From Necropsobacter massiliensis (GTDB lineage Bacteria; Pseudomonadota; Gammaproteobacteria; Enterobacterales; Pasteurellaceae), in contig NZ_LN776184.1 in NCBI RefSeq assembly GCF_000827595.2, positions 1 to 64,000 on the forward strand: a stretch of DNA of 64,000 nt. Direction: 5' to 3'. The notes under the pieces were generated by a model. That model did not search any database. It was not told the DNA's origin and saw nothing but the letters and a program-made list of their open reading frames with translations. Each line of letters begins with the position of its first letter. Position 1 is the stretch's first letter. The translations under genes and the position numbers were made by a program. Positions 14,208 to 31,718 of the stretch are shown here, in pieces.

Positions 14208-14520
14208 TATTTACTCTTTTAACCTAAAAAAATTCTTTAAATTCGACCGCACTTTTTACCTATCTCAATACGATCATTGCCCACCTGATTTTACCTGAAG
14301 ATCGGGATAATCCATAAAGAATAATTTCACAGTAAAAAACTGTTTATCTTTCATTATGTTATAAATCGTAATCAGCATAACTCGCCGCATTCGCGTTAAT
14401 TTGCCGGGTATCAGACTGACTAACGCTTGCTTTTTTGAAAAAATAGGTATAGTTTACGCCTATTATTTTGTAGCAAACACTTTCCATTTATACAATATAT
14501 ACCGATATAGGGAGACCAAT
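14208..14520 (+). promoter_or_regulatory. Intergenic region with promoter of the NAD-salvage cluster
   Basis: This 313-base gap between divergent cmk and the nicotinate phosphoribosyltransferase gene holds one uptake word (near 14245) and no gene. A good sigma-70 match, TTGTAG (14468-14473), 17 bases, TACAAT (14491-14496), would start a transcript a few bases before the GGGAG ribosome binding site. A second weaker TATAGT lies at 14448-14453. No operator was identified. Confidence 0.45.
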
Positions 14521-15639
14521 ATGGAAACGATAAATAAAGAATTCGAACTAAAACGGCAAGGAAAAATTCCACGTTTAACCAATAAAACCTTTAAGTTCGA
14601 TCCCCGCATTAAAGACGGTTGGTTCTCCGCGGTGTATTTCCTGAAAACAGCAGAAATCATTAAACAGCGCCGACCAAAACAACGGGTGACAATGCAGTTT
14701 TTCCAGAAAAAAGACGCCATCCTGTGCGGTGTTGATGAAGCAATCGCATTGCTGCACACCTTTGCCGTTAATCCGCACGAGTTAACCGTTTGGGCATTAC
14801 ATGACGGTGATAAAATCAAACCTTTTGAAACTGTCTTAATGATTGAAGGCTATTACGAAGACTTCGGTTATCTGGAGGGCTTAATCGACGGCGTGCTGGC
14901 TCGCCGTACCGCGGTCGCAACCAATGTCTATAATGTGGTGCAAGCTGCTGGCAATAAACAGGTGATTTTTATGGGAGACCGCGACGATCACTTCTCTCAA
15001 CAGGCGGGCGACGGCTATTCCGCTTATATCGGCGGAGTGGCAGCGCAAGCCACCCATGCAATGAACGAATGGTGGGGGCGAGAAGGTGTCGGCACCATGC
15101 CTCATGCGCTGATTCAATTATTCGACGGTGATTTAATCAACGCCTGCGAGGCGTATTTAGCCACTTATCCGGAAGATAATTTAGTCGCGCTGGTGGATTA
15201 CCACAATGACGTGATCACCGACAGCCTAAAAGTTGCCCGCCATTTCGGCGAGCGTCTGTACGGCGTTCGTCTGGATACCGCCGCCAATATGGTAGATCAG
15301 TATTTTTTACGCAATCAACACGAATTCGGTCAGGAAGATCTGCGCGGCACCAATGTCTGTCTGGTACGCCGCTTACGTGAACATTTGGATGCCGCCGGCT
15401 TTCAACGGGTTAAAATTATCGTCAGCGGCGGTTTTGACGCCGATAAAATCCGCCGTTTTGAAGCGCAAAACGCACCGGTGGACTCTTACGGCGTGGGTTC
15501 AAGTTTGCTCAAAGTCAATATCGGTTTTACCGGCGACTGTGTCCGCCTTAACGGCAAACAACAGGCGAAACAGGGGCGCCGCTACAGCTTTAACCCGCGC
15601 CTAAGTGCGGTGCAATTTTCGGCAGTTTCTGAAGGCTAA
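14521..15639 (+). CDS. Nicotinate phosphoribosyltransferase family protein
   Basis: Expected to join nicotinate and PRPP to give nicotinate mononucleotide (NaMN), the entry step for NAD salvage from nicotinic acid. 372 residues. Motifs of the family are visible: the N-terminal YFLKTAEI, ARRTAVATNVYNVVQAA, GDRDDHF, LVALVDYHNDVITDSLKVA, the phosphate-binding VSGGFDADKI and SYGVGSSLL. The start is ATG 14521 (GGGAGA ribosome binding site); the frame reaches further upstream but without support. It is slightly short for PncB and resembles the shorter bacterial/archaeal type. Next come a membrane protein (6 bases on) and NadE, so uptake and conversion of a pyridine precursor is likely. Confidence 0.85.
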   Translation: METINKEFELKRQGKIPRLTNKTFKFDPRIKDGWFSAVYFLKTAEIIKQRRPKQRVTMQFFQKKDAILCGVDEAIALLHTFAVNPHELTVWALHDGDKIKPFETVLMIEGYYEDFGYLEGLIDGVLARRTAVATNVYNVVQAAGNKQVIFMGDRDDHFSQQAGDGYSAYIGGVAAQATHAMNEWWGREGVGTMPHALIQLFDGDLINACEAYLATYPEDNLVALVDYHNDVITDSLKVARHFGERLYGVRLDTAANMVDQYFLRNQHEFGQEDLRGTNVCLVRRLREHLDAAGFQRVKIIVSGGFDADKIRRFEAQNAPVDSYGVGSSLLKVNIGFTGDCVRLNGKQQAKQGRRYSFNPRLSAVQFSAVSEG

Positions 15640-15644
15640 TCACA

Positions 15645-16667
15645 ATGACAAACAAGACGTTGAAAACCTTTCTGGCTGCGCGCAATATTGAATTCAGCCT
15701 GCGCCGTTATGCGATCGATGCCATGAACTTTATGGCGCTGGGTTTATTCGGTTCCCTGATTATCGGGCTGATTCTGAAAAATCTGGGCGGCTGGTTGGCT
15801 CAACCATGGCTGGTTGAACTGGGTGCACAAGCTCAAGCAAGCATAGGAGCGGCTATCGGTGTGGGTGTGGCTTACGCCTTAAAAGCGCCGCCGCTGGCGC
15901 TACTCACCAGTACCACCACCGGCATGTTAGGTGCGGCATTAGGCGGACCTATCGGTTGTTTTATCGCGGCGGCAATCGGTGCCGAATGCGGTAAGTTGGT
16001 CAGCAAACTCACGCCGATCGATATTTTAGTCACCCCTGCCGCTACACTGATAACCGGCATGCTCGCGGCGACATTAATCGGTCCGCTGCTCGCCTCATTT
16101 ATGCGCGAAACCGGTGAGTTGATCATGTGGGCAGTGGAACTTCAGCCGATTCCGATGAGCATTATTGTTTCCATCCTCATGGGAATGATTCTAACCCTGC
16201 CGATATCCAGTGCCGCAATTGCGGTAACCCTGTCATTAAGCGGTCTGGCAGGCGGCGCTGCAACCATTGGCTGCTGTGCACAAATGATCGGTTTTGCGGT
16301 GATGAGCTTCCGTGAAAACCGTTGGGCAGGTTTACTTAGCCAAGGACTTGGCACCAGCATGCTGCAAATGCCGAATATCGTGAAAAATCCTAAAATCTGG
16401 TTGCCGCCGACATTAGCCGGCGCCATTATCGCACCTTTTGCGACAGTCTGGTTTCAGATGCAGAATATTCCTTCCGGCGCTGGCATGGGCACCAGTGGAC
16501 TGGTAGGGCAAATCGGTACAATCGATGCCATGGGTAACAGCTTGTCGGTCTGGTCGGCAATTATCTTGCTGCATTTTGTGTTGCCTGCCGTATTCACCTT
16601 ATTATTGGCCGCCTTTATGCGCCGCAAAGGCTGGATTAAGCCGGACGACCTCAGACTTGATGTATAG
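15645..16667 (+). CDS. PTS_EIIC_2-family membrane protein, possible NAD-precursor transporter
   Basis: Integral membrane protein of 340 residues with about eight to ten hydrophobic segments and many small-residue stretches (GAAIGVGVAYALKAPPLALL, LGGPIGCFIAAAIGAECGKL). It looks like the PTS_EIIC_2 family, which are permease-like domains without attached IIA or IIB phosphotransfer domains; none is encoded beside it. The family substrate is not established. Tight placement (5 bases) after the nicotinate phosphoribosyltransferase gene and immediately before nadE suggests it carries nicotinate or another pyridine. That substrate is inference from context. Confidence 0.7.
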   Translation: MTNKTLKTFLAARNIEFSLRRYAIDAMNFMALGLFGSLIIGLILKNLGGWLAQPWLVELGAQAQASIGAAIGVGVAYALKAPPLALLTSTTTGMLGAALGGPIGCFIAAAIGAECGKLVSKLTPIDILVTPAATLITGMLAATLIGPLLASFMRETGELIMWAVELQPIPMSIIVSILMGMILTLPISSAAIAVTLSLSGLAGGAATIGCCAQMIGFAVMSFRENRWAGLLSQGLGTSMLQMPNIVKNPKIWLPPTLAGAIIAPFATVWFQMQNIPSGAGMGTSGLVGQIGTIDAMGNSLSVWSAIILLHFVLPAVFTLLLAAFMRRKGWIKPDDLRLDV

Positions 16668-16697
16668 TATTTGCTACAAACACCAAAGGACACCTTG

Positions 16698-17444
16698 ATG
16701 AAAAATTATCTGAATTATTTATTGCAATGGCTGGAACAACAGCGTCTGGATTACGGCGCAAACGGTTATGTAGTCGGTATCAGCGGCGGCATTGATTCCG
16801 CTGTGGTCACTCATTTATTAATGCGCTGCGGTGCGCCGGTACAGGGCTTAATTCTGCCGTCCGAAACCACTTCCGTGCAGGATATTGAAGACGCCTATCT
16901 GGTCGCCGCAAGCGCACAATGCCCCGTGCTGGAAGTGCCGATTATCGACACCTACCGCACCTTTATGCAAACTATGCAATCGCTGTTCAACGCGCAGGCA
17001 GAACGTCAGAATGTCATCGCCGGCAATTTGCAAGCGCGTTTACGCATGATGTCATTATATGCTTATGCGCAAAGTCATCAGGCAATCGTGGTCGGCACCG
17101 ATAATGCGGCAGAATGGCTGACCGGCTATTTCACCAAATTCGGCGACGGCGGCGTGGATATCGCCCCGCTGCTGCGACTGCGTAAAGAGCAAGTATACGA
17201 ACTGGCGGCATTGTTACAGGTTCCACAACAATTATTGCAAAAATCACCAAGCGCGGGCTTATGGCAAGGACAAACCGACGAAGACGAAATGGGCGTCAGC
17301 TACCGCGATATTGACGCCTTTCTACGCGGCGAACCGGTATCCGCACAAGCCTTGACGCAAATCGAATTCTGGCATAACCGTTCACACCACAAACGCCGTT
17401 TGCCGCCAGTGCCAAAATCCGTCGAGGAAATTACAAGTGTATAA
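16698..17444 (+). CDS. nadE: NH3-dependent NAD synthetase family (NadE; possibly NMN synthetase)
   Basis: ATP-dependent amidating enzyme of 248 residues. It has the N-type ATP pyrophosphatase loop SGGIDS (residues 29-34), GTDNAAEWLTGYFTKFGDGGVDIAPL and the late SAGLWQGQTDEDEMGVSY segment. There is no N-terminal glutaminase domain, so it uses free ammonia. The start is ATG 16698 with an AAAGGA ribosome binding site. Canonical NadE amidates NaAD. A related branch amidates NaMN to NMN (described for Francisella and, as I recall, reported for Mannheimia succiniciproducens). With a NaMN-forming enzyme two genes upstream either is possible; the sequence alone did not let me decide. Confidence 0.88.
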   Translation: MKNYLNYLLQWLEQQRLDYGANGYVVGISGGIDSAVVTHLLMRCGAPVQGLILPSETTSVQDIEDAYLVAASAQCPVLEVPIIDTYRTFMQTMQSLFNAQAERQNVIAGNLQARLRMMSLYAYAQSHQAIVVGTDNAAEWLTGYFTKFGDGGVDIAPLLRLRKEQVYELAALLQVPQQLLQKSPSAGLWQGQTDEDEMGVSYRDIDAFLRGEPVSAQALTQIEFWHNRSHHKRRLPPVPKSVEEITSV

Positions 17445-17584: not shown

Positions 17585-18496
17585 TTAACAGGTTTCTGTG
17601 GCAAAAAAAGCCTTAATCTGCTGTGCGGTGTGATCAAGCATGGCGTAGCGTTTGCGGTACATAGAACGCTTTTTGCTTGGAATCATCGTCGGACATTTGC
17701 GTTCAAGGTTGCGCGGTAACAGCCAATATCCGCGCGATTTGTCATAAACGCCGCCGTTTTCCCGCCAAAATTCGTCATAATTAAACAATAATTTAGTCGA
17801 ATCATTCCAGCGGTATTTAGCCTGATTTTTATGCGGAATACCGCATAATTCACAGTTTAAGGTTTCACTTAGCAACTGAAAGGCGTTAATCAGCATAAAC
17901 ATCGGGCGCATGCCATGTAAATTTTTGGTTGTTTCGCGGATCAAGCTCTGTGCCTGCGCACCATGCGGTCCTTGAATTGAGGTAATCAGCAATGTGTTAG
18001 GTGGCAAAAAAGCAAAAGAGGCATCGTACATGCTTTCTTTATGCGAATTGATAATATTCAACGAAAAAAAACCTTCAAACGGATCGATTTTGTTGATATT
18101 TAAATACAAATCCAATGCTTCTGTCAGCGTCGCCAGCCGCAAACTCTCTTCCTGAATCAGCGATTGCGCTTTAGCATAGCTAAATTTTTGTTCCGCCAAC
18201 ATAAAATTCGCTGTAATCGCCCCAAACCGCCGCCTGATGCCAAAACGTTTGTCGCAGTATTTCGCCAGCAGCGTATTGATGCGATAAGGTAGACGGGCAA
18301 ACAGAGTTTCCCATAATGGATGGAGGTGTAAAAAATACATTAATTCCCGACAATAACGGGCATAAATTAATGTATAAAAACGATAACGAAGATAGCTGCG
18401 GAGCTTTTTCTGCCAGCGTTTTTCGGCAGGATACATTTCCGCAAAAGTTGGAAAATGAGATAATTTATACATGTGATATACCATTAATACGAACAT
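17585..18496 (-). CDS. VirK/YbjX family protein (DUF535)
   Basis: Cytoplasmic protein of about 303 residues in the VirK/YbjX family. I recognise the family by the central block GFFSLNIINSHKESMYDASFAFLP, SIQGPHGAQAQSLIRETTKNLHGMRP and the C-terminal DEFWRENGG. VirK and YbjX have been linked to virulence and resistance to antimicrobial peptides in enterics, but no chemical activity is known. Several ATG codons compete as start (18496, 18484, 18472); none has a strong ribosome binding site and 18496 is a guess. It stands alone. Confidence 0.8.
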   Translation of the reverse strand: MFVLMVYHMYKLSHFPTFAEMYPAEKRWQKKLRSYLRYRFYTLIYARYCRELMYFLHLHPLWETLFARLPYRINTLLAKYCDKRFGIRRRFGAITANFMLAEQKFSYAKAQSLIQEESLRLATLTEALDLYLNINKIDPFEGFFSLNIINSHKESMYDASFAFLPPNTLLITSIQGPHGAQAQSLIRETTKNLHGMRPMFMLINAFQLLSETLNCELCGIPHKNQAKYRWNDSTKLLFNYDEFWRENGGVYDKSRGYWLLPRNLERKCPTMIPSKKRSMYRKRYAMLDHTAQQIKAFFATETC

Positions 18497-18798
18497 ATTA
18501 ACGGCGGCGGATTTTAGCAAAAAACAACCGCACTTTTAAGTCCGACACTTGCTAATCGTCGAAAAAAAAGTCAATCATCGGTAAAAATATTTCATTCTGT
18601 AAAATAGCAAGCCAGTCCAAATCTTAAAATTTAATATCAATTCACCACGTTAAATTAGAATTTAATTTCAAAAATTTACATTACATCGGTAAAAACGCAA
18701 CCAAATTCAATTCAAGGACTGATACTCTTTTGCACGTCGTACAAGAGGATATGCAATATCCGTTTAATAATCCATCCGTTAATTAAGGAGAATTGATT
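18497..18798 (+). promoter_or_regulatory. Leader and promoter region of the arcB-arcC-transporter operon
   Basis: AT-rich 302-base gap between divergent virK-like and arcB genes. It has one uptake word near 18528, AT-rich stretches resembling degenerate ARG-box halves (around 18650-18670), and a small perfect dyad GGATAT-GCA-ATATCC at 18747-18761 about 25 bases before the AAGGAG ribosome binding site. The dyad could be a regulator site or an mRNA stem. No gene is seen. Confidence 0.35.
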
Positions 18799-31070: not shown

Positions 31071-31718
31071 CTAACTTAAATCCAGCCCCATTTGCCAGAA
31101 CGCGGATTCCATTCGGGTCGCCGTGGTGAAAATTTGCTGAATAACGCGCAGCTGTTCCGCCGTTAACGGTCGGCATAGCGCATCCAACATGCGCGTAAAG
31201 TCTTGCGCTGCTTGCTGAAAATCCTCGCCGGCGTAAGTGTCGATCCACGCCTGATAAGGGTTATTTTCCGTTTTTACGCCCGCCAGCCGTTTCCCAATCG
31301 CCGCATAGCCCAACATACAAGGCGCCAGCGCAGTGTAAAGTTCTGCCAGACCACCTTTAATGCCGCAATCCAATACATAGCGCGTATATGCTACACAGGC
31401 GGGCGACTCCGCTTCGTTCATCAGCGCCTGCGGAGAAATGCCCCACTGACGGCAGAATTCAATATGCAGCTGAATCTCTTTCAGCAGCAGATCATTGGCT
31501 TGATGGGCATACTGGATCTGCGTGAAATTCTCCGCTTTAAAAATCCCGAGCGATAACGCGCGACTGTAATGAAACAGATATAAATAATCCTGTTTCAGAT
31601 AATGCTGAAAACAGGATTTCGGTAATGTGCCGTCCGCTAAACGGTTAACGAACGGATGTTGAATATAGGCTTCCCAATCGGTATGTGCTGTTCGGATCAG
31701 CTGTTGTACGATAGACAT
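31071..31718 (-). CDS. tenA: Thiaminase II / aminopyrimidine aminohydrolase TenA
   Basis: Hydrolyses aminopyrimidine breakdown products of thiamine to HMP for salvage. 215 residues, all-helical TenA fold. Motifs include [35 protein letters not shown] (N-terminal) and [16 protein letters not shown] with the catalytic Cys. The start at 31718 has a GGGAGCG ribosome binding site; an in-frame upstream extension is leader RNA. A TPP riboswitch occupies the leader, so expression should fall when thiamine pyrophosphate is plentiful. It lies between ygiW-like and qseB genes. Confidence 0.93.

Follow-up and report, generated by a model that had tools for sequence, protein, structure and literature searches.

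The window analysed here is a stretch of 64,000 nucleotides from the 2.49 Mb genome of Necropsobacter massiliensis, a member of the Pasteurellaceae. It carries three closely spaced genes of apparent vitamin B3 metabolism, together with two copies of an operator-like motif.

14469..14484, forward strand: operator-like motif TGTAGCAAACACTTTC, 52 bases upstream of the pncB start, an exact match to TGTAGCAWAYACTTTY
14521..15639, forward strand: pncB, nicotinate phosphoribosyltransferase, 372 aa (NF005529, 561.5 bits, cut-off 378)
15645..16667, forward strand: PF13303 (PTS_EIIC_2) membrane protein, 340 aa, proposed nicotinate transporter (PF13303, 317 bits, cut-off 28.9)
16663..16678, reverse strand: second motif copy TGTAGCAAATACTATA with two mismatches, lying between transporter gene and nadE; weak when taken alone
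16698..17444, forward strand: nadE, predicted Francisella-type NMN synthetase, 248 aa (TIGR00552, 241.9 bits)

Gene order and distribution in the Pasteurellaceae

The genes start with ATG at 14521, 15645 and 16698 and are separated by 5 and 30 bases. The family scan shows that NadE consists of the synthetase domain only, the glutaminase domain being absent. The initial annotation described this layout of pncB, a permease-like gene and a glutaminase-less nadE, and the open reading frame (ORF) coordinates and family scans reproduce it exactly. Its description of the membrane protein as an orphan also holds, as does the lack of a local NadD gene: no EIIA, EIIB or NadD was seen on reading the neighbouring ORFs of the window (9-24 kb), and the NadD model stays under its cut-off in the genome as well. 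Neither EIIA nor EIIB was found beside those relatives of the protein that were inspected by eye.

The order pncB, PF13303 gene, nadE recurs in five genomes of three genera. All 20 genomes inspected, which between them encode two types of PncB, have pncB and nadE either adjacent or with the PF13303 gene alone between them. Since the order recurs across genera and the pncB-nadE pairing is constant, the three-gene arrangement exceeds what chance would produce. A DUF535 gene (window 17585-18520, reverse strand) adjoins the operon in the genus of N. massiliensis, precedes it in G034 and is close to pncB-nadE in G058, perhaps as no more than a neighbour. The second PncB type (TIGR01513-like, about 480 aa) replaces the first in five Pasteurellaceae genomes (L043, L044, L045, L046 and L047), where its gene also adjoins a Francisella-type nadE and is preceded by the TGTAGC motif in three.

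Co-occurrence across genomes, which the initial annotation proposed as a check, is strict in one direction. The window-type membrane protein occurs in 11 of 140 Pasteurellaceae genomes and NadE in 23, and all 11 fall within the 23. The chance of this is 2e-10 counted by genome and 7.6e-5 counted by genus (6/6 within 11/43), figures that take no account of shared ancestry and treat as independent genomes that are not. Every one of the 11 has PncB and none has NadV. Genus g28 shows the same association on a smaller scale: the one genome with the transporter gene has pncB-nadE, and two sister genomes without either have a NadV-like protein. Of the 11 genomes, five, from three genera, have the transporter gene between pncB and nadE, and six have it elsewhere. 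In G024 it has kept its old position, flanked by cmk and argG; the adjacent pncB-nadE pair has been lost and a different pair is found elsewhere in the genome. G024 had been taken for a NadV genome, wrongly, as the second PncB type was then found beside NadE. The transporter is missing from 12 of the 23 NadE-bearing genomes and is therefore not indispensable for nicotinate use.

The proposed route from nicotinate to NAD

Two fates had been suggested for the nicotinate mononucleotide (NaMN) made by PncB, namely direct amidation to NMN, as in Francisella, or conversion to NaAD by NadD. The second is rejected, as none of 101 Pasteurellaceae genomes, N. massiliensis included, has a NadD match above the cut-off of the model, compared with 9 of 14 control genomes. 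In N. massiliensis the model gives weak matches to a protein of CoaD size and to NadR. The first fate is favoured by the sequence of NadE, whose closest solved structure is 3fiu (281 bits; next best 157 bits), with 130 of 238 residues identical (54.6%) in a gapless alignment. That structure is of the Francisella enzyme known as NMN synthetase (NadE*). The protein is thus closer to 3fiu than to NAD synthetases, in a genome that lacks NadD and possesses an NMN adenylyltransferase.

That adenylyltransferase is NadR, which is complete and encoded elsewhere in the genome (NF005988, 694.7 bits; TIGR01526, 517.7 bits), so NMN should be convertible to NAD. As established in Haemophilus, the NadR adenylyltransferase of the Pasteurellaceae prefers NMN over NaMN. 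Searches of the genome found PnuC and found neither nadA nor NadV. Because NadE is closest to 3fiu, NadD is absent and NadR is present, the route would run from nicotinate through NaMN and NMN to NAD. NadE is accordingly predicted, from its sequence, to be an NMN synthetase of the Francisella type that prefers NaMN. The Francisella route is summarised in PMC3376133; its adenylyltransferase is NadM, in place of which N. massiliensis has NadR.

It is improbable that NadE is instead an ordinary NAD synthetase acting on NaAD, supplied by an unrecognised NaMN adenylyltransferase. The name of TIGR00552, NAD(+) synthase, would fit such an enzyme, and divergent adenylyltransferases could escape detection; however, the only NadD candidates in the genome are the weak CoaD- and NadR-like matches, and 3fiu is the nearest solved relative by 124 bits.

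A shared operator-like motif and niacin gene contexts

The operator link and the NiaR link described below were both found by looking first and then tested against controls. A motif of the form TGTAGC-AWAYAC-TTTTY lies 32-76 bases upstream of pncB in 15 of 20 genomes and precedes genes for both PncB types. A weight matrix trained solely on these pncB sites was then scored upstream of transporter genes that are not linked to pncB. It gave 22.4-33.4 bits before all six of them, compared with 12.8 bits for the best of 277 independent controls. Only three of 280 other genes scored appreciably above 12.8 bits, and all three have their intergenic region in common with a transporter gene or with pncB. 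The 16 bases TGTAGCATATACTTTT occur identically in front of pncB and of the remote transporter gene in both G036 and G092. The pattern TGTAGCAWAYACTTTY is matched exactly at 11 places in 12 whole genomes, 10 of them upstream of pncB or a transporter gene. Of the three genomes of the genus, two have the second copy seen in the window (16663..16678).

The shared motif indicates that pncB and the unlinked transporter genes would form one regulon. In G018 the site is a perfect TGTAGC-N6-GCTACA, a geometry that is the same as that of the E. coli NadR box, and NadR is perhaps the regulator. Some matches were set aside. Those with two mismatches are noise, a backwards control pattern yielding similar counts; one at window position 31387 was dropped as it lies inside a gene; and a third exact copy in G036 (G036:C8:66494, L203), near a chromate-transporter-like gene, is probably there by chance.

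A scan of contigs identified 80 loci with relatives of the window protein, at identities from 48% upwards. Most have no NAD or nicotinate gene nearby. In five, from Firmicutes (L070, L092, L112, L116 and L118), niaR, recognised by its HTH_11 and 3H domains, stands beside the transporter gene or heads its gene group. The order in Natroniella sulfidigena (L070) is niaR, nadA, nadB, nadC, transporter, with a NiaR-type operator upstream of nadA. Taking the published Streptococcus pneumoniae operator (PMC5343564) as query and counting sites that match at least 19 of 23 positions, we found the transporter gene to be preceded by NiaR sites in 6 of 24 genomes that have NiaR and in 0 of 24 that lack it. 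Such sites precede only 2 of 437 other genes (p 1.7e-5), one of which is nadA of L070.

A third context is catabolic. In L063 the transporter gene begins 3 bases after a match to the medium subunit of nicotinate dehydrogenase (3hrd_B, 331 bits, next 176) and ends 18 bases before an enamidase ORF (2vun, 556 bits, next 36). The locus also encodes a large-subunit match (3hrd_A, 418 bits, next 185), and a 2-hydroxymethylglutarate dehydrogenase follows (3cky, 353 bits, next 234). These structures belong to the nicotinate fermentation cluster of Eubacterium barkeri, and relatives of the window protein sit inside clusters with these enzymes; the E. barkeri pathway degrades nicotinate, whereas the operon of N. 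massiliensis is one of salvage. An enamidase-side search of 46 genomes of one Clostridia class gave matches in eight genomes. In all six whose nicotinate dehydrogenase genes and flank were readable (G102, G200, G202, G204, G209 and G210), NdhM is directly followed by a PF13303 relative that shares 43-63% identity with the window protein, and the same placement is seen in a further genome (L069). This placement ties the PF13303 family to nicotinate itself, beyond the NAD genes. Linkage to niacin genes has thus been found in independent lineages, with pncB-nadE, with niaR and nadABC, and with nicotinate dehydrogenase and enamidase.

Co-occurrence, the unlinked shared operator, the NiaR linkage and the catabolic placement all support the proposal, made in the initial annotation, that the orphan protein takes up nicotinate. 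We infer that nicotinate rather than nicotinamide is the substrate. The NiaR, PncB and operator links fit niacin generally and say nothing of direction or charge state, which would suit a carrier of nicotinamide, or of both forms, or a protein that mainly exports nicotinate or a product of salvage. This we regard as unlikely, since nicotinate is the substrate common to PncB and nicotinate dehydrogenase, and all 11 carrier genomes have PncB and none has NadV.

The membrane protein, its proposed role and its family

An AlphaFold model built from 74 sequences has a pLDDT of 92.5; a first model, from 10 close sequences, was poor (54.5) and was discarded. The best structural matches are EIIC carriers, among them MalT (5iws, Z 15.1, rmsd 4.1, 300 residues) and the PtsG model 9a3b (Z 18.2), and the first match that is not an EIIC has a Z of 5.5. 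Foldseek alone gave a weaker result (best E 1.5e-3), and the transporter had no match when the PDB was searched by sequence. The predicted fold is therefore that of the PTS EIIC carriers of the glucose superfamily (MalT, PtsG, ChbC). In contrast to these, with which it shares about 10-14% identity, the window protein has no fused EIIA or EIIB, none neighbouring among the window ORFs over 9-24 kb, and no GITE-type motif (G[IVL][TS][ED]). Within its clade Y22, E114, K117, D126, C210, N225, Q241 and N244 are near-invariant.

Proteins of the broad PF13303 family have been named after PfoR, a regulator of perfringolysin O, and that name would suit a PfoR-like regulator or sensor rather than a carrier. 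We give this hardly any credence, since the model shows a full EIIC carrier fold (the 300 residues aligned to MalT) with no DNA-binding part, and the protein recurs in catabolic clusters at the place expected of an uptake gene. Gene context, the shared operator motif and the structural model together make the orphan protein very probably a nicotinate transporter.

We propose that the locus is a B3 salvage operon in which a PF13303 nicotinate carrier, PncB and an NMN-type NadE act together with NadR, and we consider this reading as a whole, transport included, to be likely. The PF13303 protein would bring nicotinate into the cell by means of an EIIC-type fold that operates without sugar-PTS phosphotransfer partners. 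PncB would convert nicotinate and PRPP to NaMN, thereby also trapping the vitamin inside the cell; NadE would amidate NaMN directly to NMN, as in Francisella, and NadR would adenylylate NMN to give NAD. The TGTAGC-N6-(GCTACA) operator before pncB, and before the unlinked transporter genes of relatives, would place these genes in one regulon, perhaps under the control of NadR. Coupling may be by proton symport, or entry may be facilitated, with PncB trapping the vitamin.

If correct, the proposal gives a substrate to a widespread family and has a sugar-PTS fold serving a vitamin without phosphotransfer. It would also account for the ability of some Pasteurellaceae to subsist on nicotinic acid when related species need nicotinamide riboside; two Pasteurellaceae have been reported to require nicotinic acid in defined medium (PMC3091790). 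Niacin carriers are a recognised gap. According to PMC6593275, a committed B3 transporter has yet to be named even for E. coli, and among the B3 auxotrophs examined there, only 25% could be assigned a known niacin-carrier family with confidence.

The initial annotation held that a nicotinate transporter of this family would be new. Literature searches on PTS_EIIC_2 and COG3641 found no paper, and one on PfoR with niacin found nothing relevant. The passages on niacin transport in two reviews (PMC5343564, PMC6593275) name the families NiaP, NiaX and NiaY, the last predicted from NiaR regulons in five genomes of Bacilli and Clostridia. NiaY is described there as a NiaR-regulated membrane protein of these classes, as the Firmicutes relatives of the window protein likewise appear to be from their operator motifs; those passages do not mention Pasteurellaceae, pncB-nadE or nicotinate catabolism in connection with NiaY. 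Compared by description, the NiaR data fit, and the PF13303 family may be NiaY. The claim to novelty is uncertain for this reason. It is thus only tentatively, and with some doubt, that we offer as newly assigned the role of an EIIC-type carrier without phosphotransfer partners as a dedicated nicotinate transporter in Pasteurellaceae salvage, NiaR-linked uptake in Firmicutes and fermentation in Clostridia. Should the family be NiaY, its Gram-positive part would be the earlier prediction, to which the present analysis would add the EIIC fold, the operon and regulon of the Pasteurellaceae and the link to clusters for nicotinate fermentation.

A quick tree of 79 proteins intersperses members from salvage, NiaR and catabolic settings within a single clade, whose internal branching order is provisional and which lies far from paralogs of about 30% identity; these lack several of the eight near-invariant residues. 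One member of the window clade, a 57% relative from Brachyspira (L066, 4373-7020), shares an operon with genes for L-serine ammonia-lyase subunits, and two relatives from Synergistaceae lie beside an L-serine ammonia-lyase gene on the opposite strand. The distant paralogs in Pasteurellaceae (L053, 9321-10370; L052, 5209-6309; L054, 5307-6332) have as neighbours phosphate butyryltransferase and butyrate kinase with dehydrogenase-complex genes, ilvE, and lutB-type genes. Both the Brachyspira operon and these paralogs would be in keeping with an unrelated substrate, such as an amino acid or a short acid, the position between pncB and nadE then being accidental. We consider this very improbable for the window protein, as three unrelated nicotinate contexts and an unlinked shared operator are unlikely to arise by accident. 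The paralogs of about 30% identity perhaps carry other carboxylates.
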